Shown here: positions 7,473 to 40,920 of the stretch, one piece after another
Position numbering within the stretch: position 1 is the first letter of the stretch
How the letters are laid out: each line of letters starts with the position of its first letter
From: Armatimonadota bacterium
GTDB lineage: Bacteria; Armatimonadota; Fimbriimonadia; Fimbriimonadales; Fimbriimonadaceae
Length of the DNA stretch: 64,000 nucleotides
Assembly: GCA_017303935.1 (NCBI GenBank)
Contig: JAFLBD010000003.1
Span: 310,001 to 374,000 of the forward strand
Reading direction: 5' to 3'
The notes under the pieces: generated by a model
Told to the model about the DNA's origin: nothing
Database searches by the model: none
The model's input: the letters and a program-made list of their open reading frames with translations, nothing else
Made by a program: the position numbers and the translations under genes

Positions 7473-9035
<1,563 letters not shown>

Positions 9036-34764: not shown

Positions 34765-35115
34765 ATGTCGATCCTTGGGAATCTAGACACCATCCTCGTT
34801 TTCGTCAACGATATGGATCAGTCGGTTGCTTTCTACACTCAGGTTTTGGGGTTTGAGTGCGGCTATTCGAGCGAGCACTGGTCGGTCATCAATGCGCCAG
34901 GGGCCAGGATCGGGCTCCATTCCGGCCGTGAATCTCATCACGAGAGCTCGGTCGCGCTCTGCTTCCAGACCGCGAGCACCGAACAGCTCAAAGCTCATCT
35001 GGCAGAATCCCAGACAAAATTCTCCCCCGAGGAGCACGAAACTCCCCGAGGGCGGTTGATCGAGTTTTACGATCCAAGCGGAAATCGCTTGCAGGCTATC
35101 GAGCTTACTTCTTGA
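34765..35115 (+). CDS. VOC-family (glyoxalase-like) protein
   Basis: 116 aa with the single-subunit vicinal-oxygen-chelate fold: ILVFVNDMDQSVAFYTQVLGFE at the start and RLIEFYDPSGNRLQAIEL at the end (candidate metal-binding Glu in IEFYDP). Substrate unknown. It is a chromosomal gene to the right of the element. Its last five codons and stop lie in a 30-bp repeat that is also the end of mscL. Confidence 0.88.
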   Translation: MSILGNLDTILVFVNDMDQSVAFYTQVLGFECGYSSEHWSVINAPGARIGLHSGRESHHESSVALCFQTASTEQLKAHLAESQTKFSPEEHETPRGRLIEFYDPSGNRLQAIELTS

Positions 35116-35130
35116 GCAAATCTCGGATTT
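35101..35130 (+). repeat. 30-bp direct repeat, left copy (antisense mscL tail)
   Basis: Identical over 30 bp to 37612-37641, with different flanks. It contains the VOC stop and, on the other strand, the last eight codons and stop of mscL. The pair bounds a 2.5-kb insertion. Confidence 0.9.
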
Positions 35131-35272
35131 TGCTACACTGAAATTCTGGAAAATTAGTAGAACTAGGAATATGACGCGTACCAGTAAGTAGCGCCGGCAT
35201 GGCTACGTTCCTCAAATACGGATGGTTCCGCGAGGAATCGCGTCTAGCCTAATCCTGTTGTATAGTATTAGA

Positions 35273-35833
35273 ATGGTATTTAGCGAATCCAAGGCAGCAG
35301 CACTTGCGGCGCATATTCTAAGAATGGCGGGAGGCAAGATGGAATACCTGAAGCTCCTGAAGCTGATGTACCTGTGCGAACGCGAGTCTCTCAAAGCAAT
35401 CAGCACATCCATTACTGGAGATAATTTTGTCTCGATGAAACACGGCCCAGTGATGAGTGGAACGTATGATCTCATCAAGGGAAATTGGGAGTGGTTCGAA
35501 CATGATACATGGGAAAAGTCAATCCATCGGGACAAATACATTGTAAGTGTGGTATCCGATATCGACGTTTCGGTGTATCTAAGTCCATTTGAAATCGAAA
35601 TCGCTACAGATATCTGGAATCGTTTTAAGAGCGTCGATAAGTGGGAAATTGTGAAATGGATGCACGATACATTTCCCGAGTGGCGCGAAACGAATAGCAG
35701 AATCGCTATCAATCTCGAGGACATTTACAAGGCGGTTGGAGTCAGTGATGAGGACGTGGCCAGGAGACTTCACTTTATCCAGGGCCTGTCCGCATTTGAG
35801 CGCCTCCTTGCAGATGCAAAGGACGTGTCGTAA
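35273..35833 (+). CDS. Panacea-domain (DUF4065/SocA-like) antitoxin
   Basis: 186 aa from ATG at 35273. The Panacea fold is recognisable: AALAAHILRMAGGKMEYLKLLKLMYLCERESLKAISTSITGDNFVSMKHGPVMSGTYDLIKG. Such proteins neutralise many unrelated toxins encoded next to them. The stop overlaps the next start (TAATG), as in toxin-antitoxin operons. TATAGT at 35261-35266 could be a -10 with a very short leader. The 35131-35272 stretch before it holds no visible gene. Confidence 0.85.
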   Translation: MVFSESKAAALAAHILRMAGGKMEYLKLLKLMYLCERESLKAISTSITGDNFVSMKHGPVMSGTYDLIKGNWEWFEHDTWEKSIHRDKYIVSVVSDIDVSVYLSPFEIEIATDIWNRFKSVDKWEIVKWMHDTFPEWRETNSRIAINLEDIYKAVGVSDEDVARRLHFIQGLSAFERLLADAKDVS

Positions 35834-36216
35834 TGTCCATCAAAGCAGACGTCGGCCTAGTCCTGACGCACTCCGGGGGGCACCCCGTTATGATCGTTTC
35901 CGATTACCCTGCTCATGGTGACGACCTAGTGATTATGGTCAATTTTACGTACTACACAAATGTCCAGGACGCCCATATTTTGTTCCACAAGGGGTACAGA
36001 TTATCCGGCGGATATGCGTTCGACAAAGACTCGACGGTTCACCCAGACGTAGCAAAGTGTACGAGGTCTCAGGCCGAGACCGTTATCTTGGCATGCAACA
36101 ATCACGGCCATGCCAGCCAAATCGACATTGATAAAGTTAGGAAACTGGTTGCAGTTAACTCGGCGAAAATCAAAGATGCGGATGTCAGGTCGCACGTTCA
36201 GAGTCTGGGCTGGTAA
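35833..36216 (+). CDS. Putative toxin partner of the Panacea antitoxin, unrecognised
   Basis: 127 aa, ATG overlapping the antitoxin stop. The sequence looks beta-rich at the start (GLVLTHSGGHPVMIVSDYPAHGDDLVIMVNFTYY), with later DKDSTVHPDVAKCTRSQAETVILACNNHGH. The beginning is loosely like the SH3-type barrel of PemK/MazF proteins, but I cannot confirm this. The toxin role is inferred from the neighbour and the gene overlap. Confidence 0.7.
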   Translation: MSIKADVGLVLTHSGGHPVMIVSDYPAHGDDLVIMVNFTYYTNVQDAHILFHKGYRLSGGYAFDKDSTVHPDVAKCTRSQAETVILACNNHGHASQIDIDKVRKLVAVNSAKIKDADVRSHVQSLGW

Positions 36217-36228
36217 CGATTTAGCATC

Positions 36229-36266
36229 AAGTAGATTTGTGCACGATGCGTGTCTCAAATCTACTT
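36229..36266 (+). terminator. Hairpin after the toxin-antitoxin pair
   Basis: AAGTAGATTTG (36229-36239) pairs perfectly with CAAATCTACTT (36256-36266), 13 nt after the toxin stop. There is no T-run, so termination is uncertain. Confidence 0.5.
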
Positions 36267-36359
36267 ACTGGTGGTGAAATCAAATTCTTAATTTTCACAT
36301 TGTTCTAAAGCGCATATCAGTTCATTCGATTAGTCCTCAAATTTCTTAAGCAGCAATTC

Positions 36360-36722: not shown

Positions 36723-36875
36723 ATTGCGGCAAGAACTGGGAAAATTGATGTCGAAAGATCAACTTTAGATCGCATTTCCTGCACTTCCCCTCTCTACTTC
36801 GCGATTTCAAGCCGAAAGATCAAGTAGTGCCGAATTCAGACCCGGATTTTGGTCGGCAGTTCGGCGAGGTCATTT

Positions 36876-37526
36876 ATGGCAATTTATATTACAGAGGAGC
36901 TGAACGACTCCGCCCTTGTCATTGCGATGAACAATTTCATCGCCAACATTACGGATAACGATGCCGTTTTGGGTTTGGACACCGATGAACTCCTGGCCTT
37001 CACCACCCGATACAACGCTTTCAAGGCGGCGGTTGACGAGGTCGCGGATATCAAGCTGCAATCAAAATCGGCCACGGCCGACAAGAACGATAAGAAGGCG
37101 GACGCACGAGCTCTGATCGCTCAGTATGCCAAGGAGTGGCGCGGGAATCCGGCGATTCCGGACGCACTTTTGGACTTGCTGCAACTTCCAAATCACCAAA
37201 ACAATGGCCCGCGCTCGGCTCCGACCGTGCCGACGGATCTTTCTTTCACGATCAATAACGTGGGCGAAGTGACCTTGCGATGGAAGCGAAACGGCAACAA
37301 TTCTCGGACGATTTTCACCGTTGAAACCGGCCCTTCGACATCTGGTCCTTGGACTGTTTATGATGTCACCACCAAGGCTTCGAGCGAATACAACGGCCCG
37401 AGCGGAATTGAGACCTTCTTCCGTGTGATCGCCAGACGAAATGGCATCTCTAGCAATCCTTCATTCCCGATCTCGCTTTGGGCGAATGGAAATGGAGAGT
37501 TTTTGAAGAAACTCAACGCCGCTTAG
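36876..37526 (+). CDS. Protein with C-terminal fibronectin type III-like domain
   Basis: 216 aa from the ATG with GAGG upstream. The helical N-terminal half (about 1-100) ends in a short Asn/Pro linker, then a beta domain of fibronectin III type (PTDLSFTINNVGEVTLRWKRNGNNSRTIFTVETGPSTSGPWTVYDV...TFFRVIARRNGISSNPS). No signal peptide is visible. Function unknown. It ends before a strong hairpin. Confidence 0.75.
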   Translation: MAIYITEELNDSALVIAMNNFIANITDNDAVLGLDTDELLAFTTRYNAFKAAVDEVADIKLQSKSATADKNDKKADARALIAQYAKEWRGNPAIPDALLDLLQLPNHQNNGPRSAPTVPTDLSFTINNVGEVTLRWKRNGNNSRTIFTVETGPSTSGPWTVYDVTTKASSEYNGPSGIETFFRVIARRNGISSNPSFPISLWANGNGEFLKKLNAA

Positions 37527-37600: not shown

Positions 37601-37611
37601 CTATGACTTTT

Positions 37612-37641
37612 GAGCTTACTTCTTGAGCAAATCTCGGATTT
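37612..37641 (+). repeat. 30-bp direct repeat, right copy (3' end of mscL)
   Basis: Identical to 35101-35130. Here it is the genuine mscL end, encoding EIRDLLKK and the stop on the minus strand. Confidence 0.9.
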
Positions 37642-38500: not shown

Positions 38501-39841
38501 GTGCAACCCGTCCTGGTTGACTACCGCACGAAAACCGCCCTATGGCTGATTGTGCACGAAACGTTAAGGCAACATTGGCAACCCCACGCAGGACAGATTG
38601 AATTCTTGCAGCGGACGGACCGCATCAAGGTTCTCGCTTGCGGCCGGCGATGGGGCAAGACCGATGCGTGCGCCGTCTCGATTCTGCAATCGTTTGCCGA
38701 ATCTACTCCGACGAAGCACCTTATTTTGGCACCAACGCTCGAGCAAACCAAGTTCCTGTTTGAGCGGATTGTCGAGTTGATCCCACTCGCCTTCCCTGCT
38801 TCATCCTTGAAGATAAAGCGCTCGCCGCACCCGCAGCTTGAAGTTCAAGTGACCCCGGACGGTGAGGTGCATCGGTTGAAAGCCCGATCAGGTCACCTTG
38901 GCTACACCCTTCGCGGCGACGAGGCCACCAACATTGTCGTGGACGAGGCCGCCTATGTGCCGGAAAGTCTGATCACGGAAGTCGCGATGCCGATGCTTGC
39001 GACCACCCGCGGGCAACTTACGCTCATCAGCACACCGCGAGGCAAAAACCATTTCTACAAGTTCTTTCGGTTTGGGCAGACCGGAGAACACGGAGTCTGG
39101 AGCAAGGCGGCCCCAACGGTCGAATCCCCATTCGTCAGCGCGGACTTTCTCTCAACTCAGAAAGAGCTTCTTTCTGAGCGAGTGTTCCGTGTCGAATACC
39201 TCGCGGAGTTCATGGATACGTCCGGAAAAGTCTTCCCGACTGATGCTGTTGAACGATGTGTCAAGCCTCGCCTGAACGCCGATCCTGCACCGCCGTACTC
39301 CATCGGAATTGACTGGGCGCGGTTCAGCGATTACACCGCGATTGCGGTTCTTTCTGGGTCTCGCGACGATGCGAAACTCGTTCAGCTTGTAAGGTTCAAC
39401 GGCCTCGCCTGGAGCGATCAAGTCCAACGTGTGTCGGCGATTCTCGAGCAGTATCCAGGGGCAAAGGTGCTCTGCGATGCCACTGGAGTTGGCGATCCTG
39501 TGCTGGAGATGCTGCGCGCACGAAATCCGCATCTGCGCATCGAAGGGCTGGTCTTCAGCCAACCGAAGAAGCAGGAATTGATCGACAACCTCGCCTGGAT
39601 GTTCGAACGTGGCGCGATTCAGCTCACGCCATACCCAGACCTCTTGCGAGAACTGGAGTATTTCGAAGCCACCACGTCCCCTTCCGGGAACGTTCGGTTG
39701 GCCGCCGCAAGTGGCTATCACGACGATCTTGTAGTGGCTCTCGCACTAGCCGCCAAGCAATGCCAATGCGCCTACAGCGGCGTCATCGCCACTTCCCACC
39801 CTCGCCAATTTTCGCATCAAATCGAATCAGAAACGCTATGA
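38501..39841 (+). CDS. Phage-type terminase large subunit
   Basis: 446 aa, GTG start. ATPase domain with Walker A GRRWGKT (48-54), Walker B NIVVDEAAY (D148, E149) and the coupling motif LISTPRG. The RNase H-like nuclease domain has IGIDWARFSDYTAIAVL, LCDATGVGDPVLEML and YHDDLVVALALA, covering the expected three acidic positions. In phages it packages DNA into capsids. Here it is followed only by a portal gene, with ribosomal and division genes on either side, so it is either a prophage remnant or a domesticated pair. Confidence 0.9.
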   Translation: MQPVLVDYRTKTALWLIVHETLRQHWQPHAGQIEFLQRTDRIKVLACGRRWGKTDACAVSILQSFAESTPTKHLILAPTLEQTKFLFERIVELIPLAFPASSLKIKRSPHPQLEVQVTPDGEVHRLKARSGHLGYTLRGDEATNIVVDEAAYVPESLITEVAMPMLATTRGQLTLISTPRGKNHFYKFFRFGQTGEHGVWSKAAPTVESPFVSADFLSTQKELLSERVFRVEYLAEFMDTSGKVFPTDAVERCVKPRLNADPAPPYSIGIDWARFSDYTAIAVLSGSRDDAKLVQLVRFNGLAWSDQVQRVSAILEQYPGAKVLCDATGVGDPVLEMLRARNPHLRIEGLVFSQPKKQELIDNLAWMFERGAIQLTPYPDLLRELEYFEATTSPSGNVRLAAASGYHDDLVVALALAAKQCQCAYSGVIATSHPRQFSHQIESETL

Positions 39842-40920
39842 AACTCACCTTACCTTTCTCCAAAAAAGTAACCAAACCAACGAAATCTTCCACCCCTCAA
39901 TACTCTCTCACCGAGCGACGGAGCCTCGAATATCCGGGCGTCACCCATGGACTTCCAGGATCGGCATACGAGGAAATGGAACTTGATCCCATGATTCAGA
40001 CGGCGATTACGATCAAGCAGCAAGCGGTCTTAGCCGCCGATTACCAGATCGTTCCGCAATCCGAAACTCCCACCGCGATCCGCAATGCCAAGTTCATCGA
40101 ATCGGTGTTTGAGCAGATGGAAGGAAGCCCTCGCACGATTCTGCAATCGGCAATGGATGCCTTCGTTCGGGGCTGGTCGGTGCAAGAGTTGATCTACACC
40201 GAGCGAGACGAGCAAATCGTTCTGACGCGGTGCCAGCCCAAAGATGTGAGCCAATTCGGCCTCATCCTCGACGAATTCGGTCAGCTCTTGGGGCTTTCGT
40301 TCCGATCTCCAGACTTTGAAGAATCTTCGGTTCCGCTGGGCAAGTTTGCGGTGTTTATCAATCGACCGCACACTTCAAGGCCAAAAGGACGAAGCGATCT
40401 GGATTCGGCATACCCGCACTTCAAGACCAAGCAATCTCTCGCGAAAGCGTGGAAGGCTCATTTGGAGCGCTACGCCAGCCCGACGCTTCTTGGGTCGTAT
40501 CAAAGAGGGCTACCTGAAGATGAACAGCGCGGATTCTTGGCCTCGCTGAAGAACCTTCACGATAACACCGCGATCGTGTATCCAGATGAAATCAAGATCG
40601 AAGCACTCCACGGCCGGGAGTCAGACAACAACGCCTTCTTGGAAGCGATCGAATTTCACAATCGAGAGATCGCACGCTCGATTCTAGGGCAGACTCTGAC
40701 CACCGACGAAGGACGACGAGTGGGTTCGCTCGCGCTTGGCAAGGTCCATTTGCAAGTTTTGATGCTTCAAATCACCTCGCTTCGGAAACTTCTGGCAGAT
40801 TCTGTGATGACGGAGCAGATCATCCGGCCACTGATTGAGTTGAATTTCGGCCCAGGAGAGGTACCGCGATTTGAATTCAATTCGCCAGAACTAGAAGCGT
40901 TCACGACCGGAAAACTCTAA
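39838..40920 (+). CDS. DUF935 (Mu gp29-like) phage portal protein
   Basis: 360 aa; ATG overlaps the terminase stop (ATGA). Family features include YEEMELDPMIQTAITIKQQAVLAADYQI near the start, FVRGWSVQELIYTERD in the middle and GQTLTTDEGRRVGSLALGKVHLQVL towards the end. Portals form the ring through which the terminase pumps DNA. It is shorter than Mu gp29 (about 500 aa), mainly at the C-terminus. No capsid, head or tail genes follow. The frame is intact. Confidence 0.85.
   Translation: MKLTLPFSKKVTKPTKSSTPQYSLTERRSLEYPGVTHGLPGSAYEEMELDPMIQTAITIKQQAVLAADYQIVPQSETPTAIRNAKFIESVFEQMEGSPRTILQSAMDAFVRGWSVQELIYTERDEQIVLTRCQPKDVSQFGLILDEFGQLLGLSFRSPDFEESSVPLGKFAVFINRPHTSRPKGRSDLDSAYPHFKTKQSLAKAWKAHLERYASPTLLGSYQRGLPEDEQRGFLASLKNLHDNTAIVYPDEIKIEALHGRESDNNAFLEAIEFHNREIARSILGQTLTTDEGRRVGSLALGKVHLQVLMLQITSLRKLLADSVMTEQIIRPLIELNFGPGEVPRFEFNSPELEAFTTGKL

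Follow-up and report, generated by a model that had tools for sequence, protein, structure and literature searches.

SocA is a founding member of PF13274, and its partner SocB binds the DNA sliding clamp. Panacea antitoxins as a whole pair with dozens of toxin kinds, and their partners are mechanistically diverse (Kurata et al., 2022; PMC8832971). Two of these partners, the PanT proteins of Pseudomonas moraviensis and Bifidobacterium ruminantium, go without a match in CDD and are EndoA/PemK/MazF-like in HHpred; tested in E. coli, both brought about a specific stop of protein synthesis (PMC8832971). MazF/PemK is among the commonest folds in the network of such pairs (Ernits et al., PMC10440598). 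In MazF itself, Arg25 is proposed to act as general acid/base, while Thr48 stabilises charge (PMC7354611).

We analyzed a window of 64,000 nucleotides (contig C3, 310001-374000) from a 2.56-Mb Armatimonadota genome, whose phylum is indicated by Chthonomonas and Armatimonadetes loci recovered from genomes of the same phylum. We think it likely that two genes in this window, panA and panT, form a Panacea toxin-antitoxin pair (PanAT), in which the predicted toxin panT would be a divergent small barrel of the MazF/PemK kind, most likely arresting growth by cutting RNA, and in which panA would bind and silence it. The locus resembles the P. moraviensis and B. ruminantium pairs in placing a Panacea antitoxin beside a small CDD-less toxin, here predicted to be MazF-like. 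It differs from those tested pairs in that panT lies outside PHROG 19071 by hmmscan and has a rewritten C-terminal half, and in that the host belongs to the Armatimonadota.

The antitoxin gene and its overlapping partner

The product of panA carries a full Panacea domain (PF13274 in Pfam, E 8.1e-21, 75.5 bits where 25.7 is the cut-off) and is matched by PHROG 1281 at 2e-24, which upholds its initial identification as a Panacea antitoxin. Its best relatives are 33-41% identical. An in-frame alternative start lies further upstream at 35222, but the relatives begin at the 'M-x-F-x-E-x-K' equivalent of 35273. The SocA_Panacea domain is common to panA and to SocA of the type VI SocAB system of Caulobacter. 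An assignment of panAT to SocAB was nevertheless rejected, since panA scores only 18.2 bits with the NCBIfam SocA equivalog, whose cut-off is 190; there is also no sign of a SocB-like partner.

The two genes are directly joined: the ATG of panT begins at 35833, inside the panA stop codon TAA at 35831-35833 (GTCGTAATGTCC). This is the TAATG overlap with a 127-aa partner that the first-pass annotation had pointed out, and it was confirmed at 35831-35835. Such an overlap would couple the translation of panT to that of panA. No full sigma-70 promoter came out of a consensus scan; the weak candidate -10 element in Table 1 would imply a leaderless message. The hairpin that follows panT has no T run after it and is a possible transcript end.

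Table 1. Features of the panAT locus, with positions in the window
Feature	Position	Strand	Basis or remark
35-bp direct repeat, left copy (33/35 identical)	35096..35130	+	3' end of VOC (glyoxalase-like) gene
TATAGT, possible -10 element, leaderless message (weak)	35261..35266	+	6 bases before panA ATG
panA, stand-alone Panacea (SocA_Panacea, PF13274) antitoxin, 186 aa	35273..35833	+	PF13274, PHROG 1281
AAGGAC, possible ribosome-binding site for panT	35819..35824	+	sequence
TAATG stop/start overlap of panA and panT	35831..35835	+	sequence; translational coupling inferred
panT (P0002), 127-aa partner, predicted toxin, divergent MazF/PemK-like	35833..36216	+	profile alignment to the Panacea-partner family
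Stable RNA hairpin directly 3' of panT	36225..36273	+	-21 kcal/mol, z -4.0
35-bp direct repeat, right copy	37607..37641	+	3' end of mscL (minus strand)

A Panacea-linked partner family

Searched by itself in Pfam, NCBIfam, PHROGs and PADLOC and against PDB sequences, panT gave only noise and no match that could be trusted, and the libraries thus agree with the first reading of the locus, in which the partner matched no toxin that could be named. In particular, the Pfam model for MazF/PemK (PF02452) did not match it. Searches by tblastn returned no relatives in plasmids, phages or 291 genomes of the phylum besides its own genome, and a direct homology search of genome contigs and viral contigs returned none either. 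Kin of panT were instead sought via the antitoxin, by reading the ORF 3' of the Panacea gene in each relative of panA; these relatives were drawn from the same phylum, other phyla, viral contigs, and plasmid and phage records.

Panacea relatives were found in 22 of the 291 phylum genomes. The nearest relatives of panA are followed by a protein of 120-150 aa that belongs to one family, nearly always starting between -8 and +25 nt from the antitoxin stop, with the signature '(A)GDtFl...HLwvVltDP...v.VN.T....D.tC.L..GDHPFvKH.SyV.Y.kA'. All 17 members of the partner-family profile match PHROG 19071 ('unknown function'), and none of the 17 has a Pfam match, PF02452 included. The profile found eight matches in the 291 Armatimonadota genomes and three more in 321 genomes from the class to which a proteobacterial member belongs; each match has a Panacea ORF directly 5' of it (11/11 over the 612 genomes scanned). 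Members of the family sit next to Panacea genes in phages and in bacteria of at least two phyla. Two related partner groups, marked by 'DYpFL.HDSFLdC' and 'PAHYWIiLnDP', adjoin more distant Panacea proteins and align with the family at P 8.5e-9 and 4.6e-6, respectively, by profile alignment, and the remotest Panacea relatives (L021/L030, L024) have a different partner. Two of the relatives, the Chthonomonas loci L032 and L036, have a truncated or fused partner ORF; that of L036 runs at its 3' part into sequence resembling a type I restriction specificity subunit.

One phage member may link the family to a tested system. The partner of the PanA of phage Sirocco is a member of the PHROG 19071-type family, and this PanA, once its GTG start is taken into account, has the same N-terminus as P. 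moraviensis PanA, MIFSEQKVAQ (PMC8832971). That P. moraviensis PanT (WP_083201923.1) may belong with the partner family found here is a lead.

The partners of the closest panA relatives form one family, which places panT by guilt by neighbor, and profile alignment points the same way. In hhalign (an independent run was also made), panT aligns with the partner family at a score of 29.5 (P 1.8e-4), whereas 500 shuffled versions of panT scored no higher than 20.9 and 124 decoys, segments of real proteins, no higher than 17.8. Since panT also occupies the same site and has the same size as the partners of the relatives, it is not merely a random reading frame. The significant alignment is limited to residues 3-52, and identity to any one partner is only about 15-25%. 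Within panT, the family residues at His17, Thr39, Asp46, Ser67 and Val69 are kept. Beyond residue 52, only the stretch 'FDKDSTV' (63-69) can be aligned, with 'F-KHDSyV' of the family, and the C-terminal half lacks the GDHPF and Tyr motifs. The conserved residues of the family, in the numbering of member L043, are His16, Asp45, His55, Ser63, Tyr67 and Arg100; panT keeps His17, Asp46 and Ser67 of this set, equivalents of His55 and Tyr67 were not found, and an equivalent of Arg100 could not be placed. MAFFT tended to pair His70 of panT with the GDH motif of the family, which we judged to be a misalignment. By these computed comparisons panT is a distant member of the PHROG 19071-type Panacea-partner family: PHROG 19071 takes in the partners of the closest panA relatives, and panT can be aligned with it by profile, but hmmscan of PHROGs does not reach panT with the 19071 model itself.

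Such divergence raises the question of decay. The pair might have been captured on a mobile unit where the antitoxin stayed intact and the toxin is degenerating into an inactive protein, and the missing GDHPF and Tyr motifs, the lack of a close panT relative in the 291 phylum genomes and the absence of panAT from the four genus mates searched would all suit such a history. We nonetheless consider it improbable, given that the panT ORF is intact, overlaps the panA stop exactly and retains the His/Thr pair, and that the same genome holds a second Panacea pair, also divergent, with a similar partner. We favor a panT that is divergent and functional, as an RNA-cutting toxin held in check by panA.

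Likeness of the partner family to MazF/PemK

We compared the partner family with an alignment of 30 PF02452 proteins from the same phylum. The profile-profile alignment covers MazF positions 4-108 of 113 with a score of 26.4 (P 7e-4); none of 200 column shuffles did as well (at most 19.8), and a reversed profile scored 14.5. With panT alone the comparison with MazF gives a non-significant P of 0.04; it is therefore by way of the family that panT is linked to MazF. The family is colinear with MazF/PemK over the whole domain and keeps the Thr48 position, whose column holds Thr or Ser in 18 of 21 family members and Thr39 in panT. It differs from MazF/PemK in having no PF02452 match and in its Arg25 column, where 20 of 21 members have His and a single member has Arg (panT has His17). 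The antitoxin differs as well, being Panacea here rather than MazE/PemI. On these alignments, the partner family appears MazF-like and may have a PemK-like barrel fold.

The initial description of the locus combined a Panacea antitoxin in a toxin-antitoxin pair with the suggestion that the partner was a new toxin type. The first part stands, on the Panacea domain, the gene overlap and the adjacency seen in 11/11 family matches. The second finds no support, because panT falls in a Panacea-linked family of the PHROG 19071 type, because this family aligns with MazF/PemK over its full length, and because CDD-less PanT proteins predicted to be MazF-like RNases were already tested in 2022 (PMC8832971). 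A genuinely new fold unrelated to MazF would explain why panT matches no library entry or PDB sequence; with panT-family alignment well above shuffles and decoys, and with the family colinear with MazF, we regard it as very unlikely. Most likely, panT is a new, distant member of an already described kind of Panacea-linked toxin and not a new toxin class.

If panT acts as we propose, the 127-aa barrel would cut RNA, which would block translation and arrest growth, and the Panacea protein would bind panT and silence it, as in a type II pair. The family-wide His at the position of the MazF Arg is the one feature that deserves specialist attention, and it bears on the mechanism. The pair could be genuine and panT yet not be an RNase: its small barrel might bind some other target, such as the ribosome or, like SocB, the DNA sliding clamp, with His17 in a structural role. 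The replacement of the catalytic Arg by His in the partner family and the diverged C-terminal half of panT would both suit this reading, and SocA-SocB offers a precedent for clamp binding. The mechanistic diversity of Panacea partners speaks for it as well (PMC8832971). We hold it to be unlikely, as the two tested partners with a predicted likeness to MazF shut down protein synthesis specifically, and as the score of panA, 18 bits against the SocA cut-off of 190, argues against a SocB-like target.

A more speculative possibility concerns the family as a whole. It may be a MazF-derived barrel whose catalytic Arg has been replaced by His and which either cleaves a distinct RNA target (e.g. tRNA) through another kind of acid-base chemistry or, as a non-RNase, arrests translation by binding; the panT lineage would then be a further variant that lacks the GDH and Tyr motifs. 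We offer this account tentatively, as something that could be true rather than something we expect.

Under our preferred reading of panT as an RNA-cutting toxin, what had been an unrecognized toxin becomes a testable prediction about a widespread Panacea-linked family, which has no Pfam entry, is of 'unknown function' in PHROGs and is apparently MazF-like. If this is confirmed, an assay on a single conserved member would serve to annotate many Panacea partners, be they phage-, plasmid- or chromosome-borne, and to show whether a MazF barrel can function when the Arg is missing.

Genomic setting

The panAT pair lies between a VOC gene and mscL, in a 2.5-kb segment flanked on either side by a copy of the 35-bp repeat. 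A 21-base core of this repeat occurs exactly at these two sites and nowhere else in the genome, and no recombinase gene was found between the two copies. The 3' end of mscL looks like the integration site of a small unit that has no recombinase of its own. Besides panAT, the repeat-bounded unit holds a 225-aa ORF (36849-37526) that looks fibronectin-III-like; a scan of 215 aa of it gave no match in Pfam.

To the left of panAT lies an island of about 27 kb (window about 7550-34700), with a tRNA-Met gene (7473-7549) at its edge. It holds a serine and a tyrosine recombinase, a phage-type Dam methylase, and a type I restriction-modification operon that includes RmrA-/TmtA-like genes. We delimit it as an island because genus mates lack it at the equivalent site, tRNA-Met and mscL being close neighbors in two of them: they adjoin in G112, and in G115 a VOC gene lies between them.

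The second Panacea pair of this genome is on the same contig (C3 297338-298348), 50 bp upstream of the mod/res pair of a type III restriction-modification system; pair and mod/res together span about 297338-303101 of C3 (L111:7239-13002). Its partner carries a 'DhDSTV' stretch comparable to residues 63-69 of panT. The placements of both Panacea pairs fit a defense role without proving it, and we infer that panAT would likely act against phages.

Genes for a terminase large subunit and a portal-like protein lie at 38501-40920, between rpmB/mscL and ftsZ. A prophage context for panAT, suggested by these genes to the right of mscL, was considered and dropped, as they are common to at least two genomes of the genus. 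In one genus mate, homologs of the terminase and portal genes likewise adjoin rpmB and mscL, with gene order preserved. The region is therefore not specific to the panAT insertion; it is possibly an old, domesticated phage remnant.
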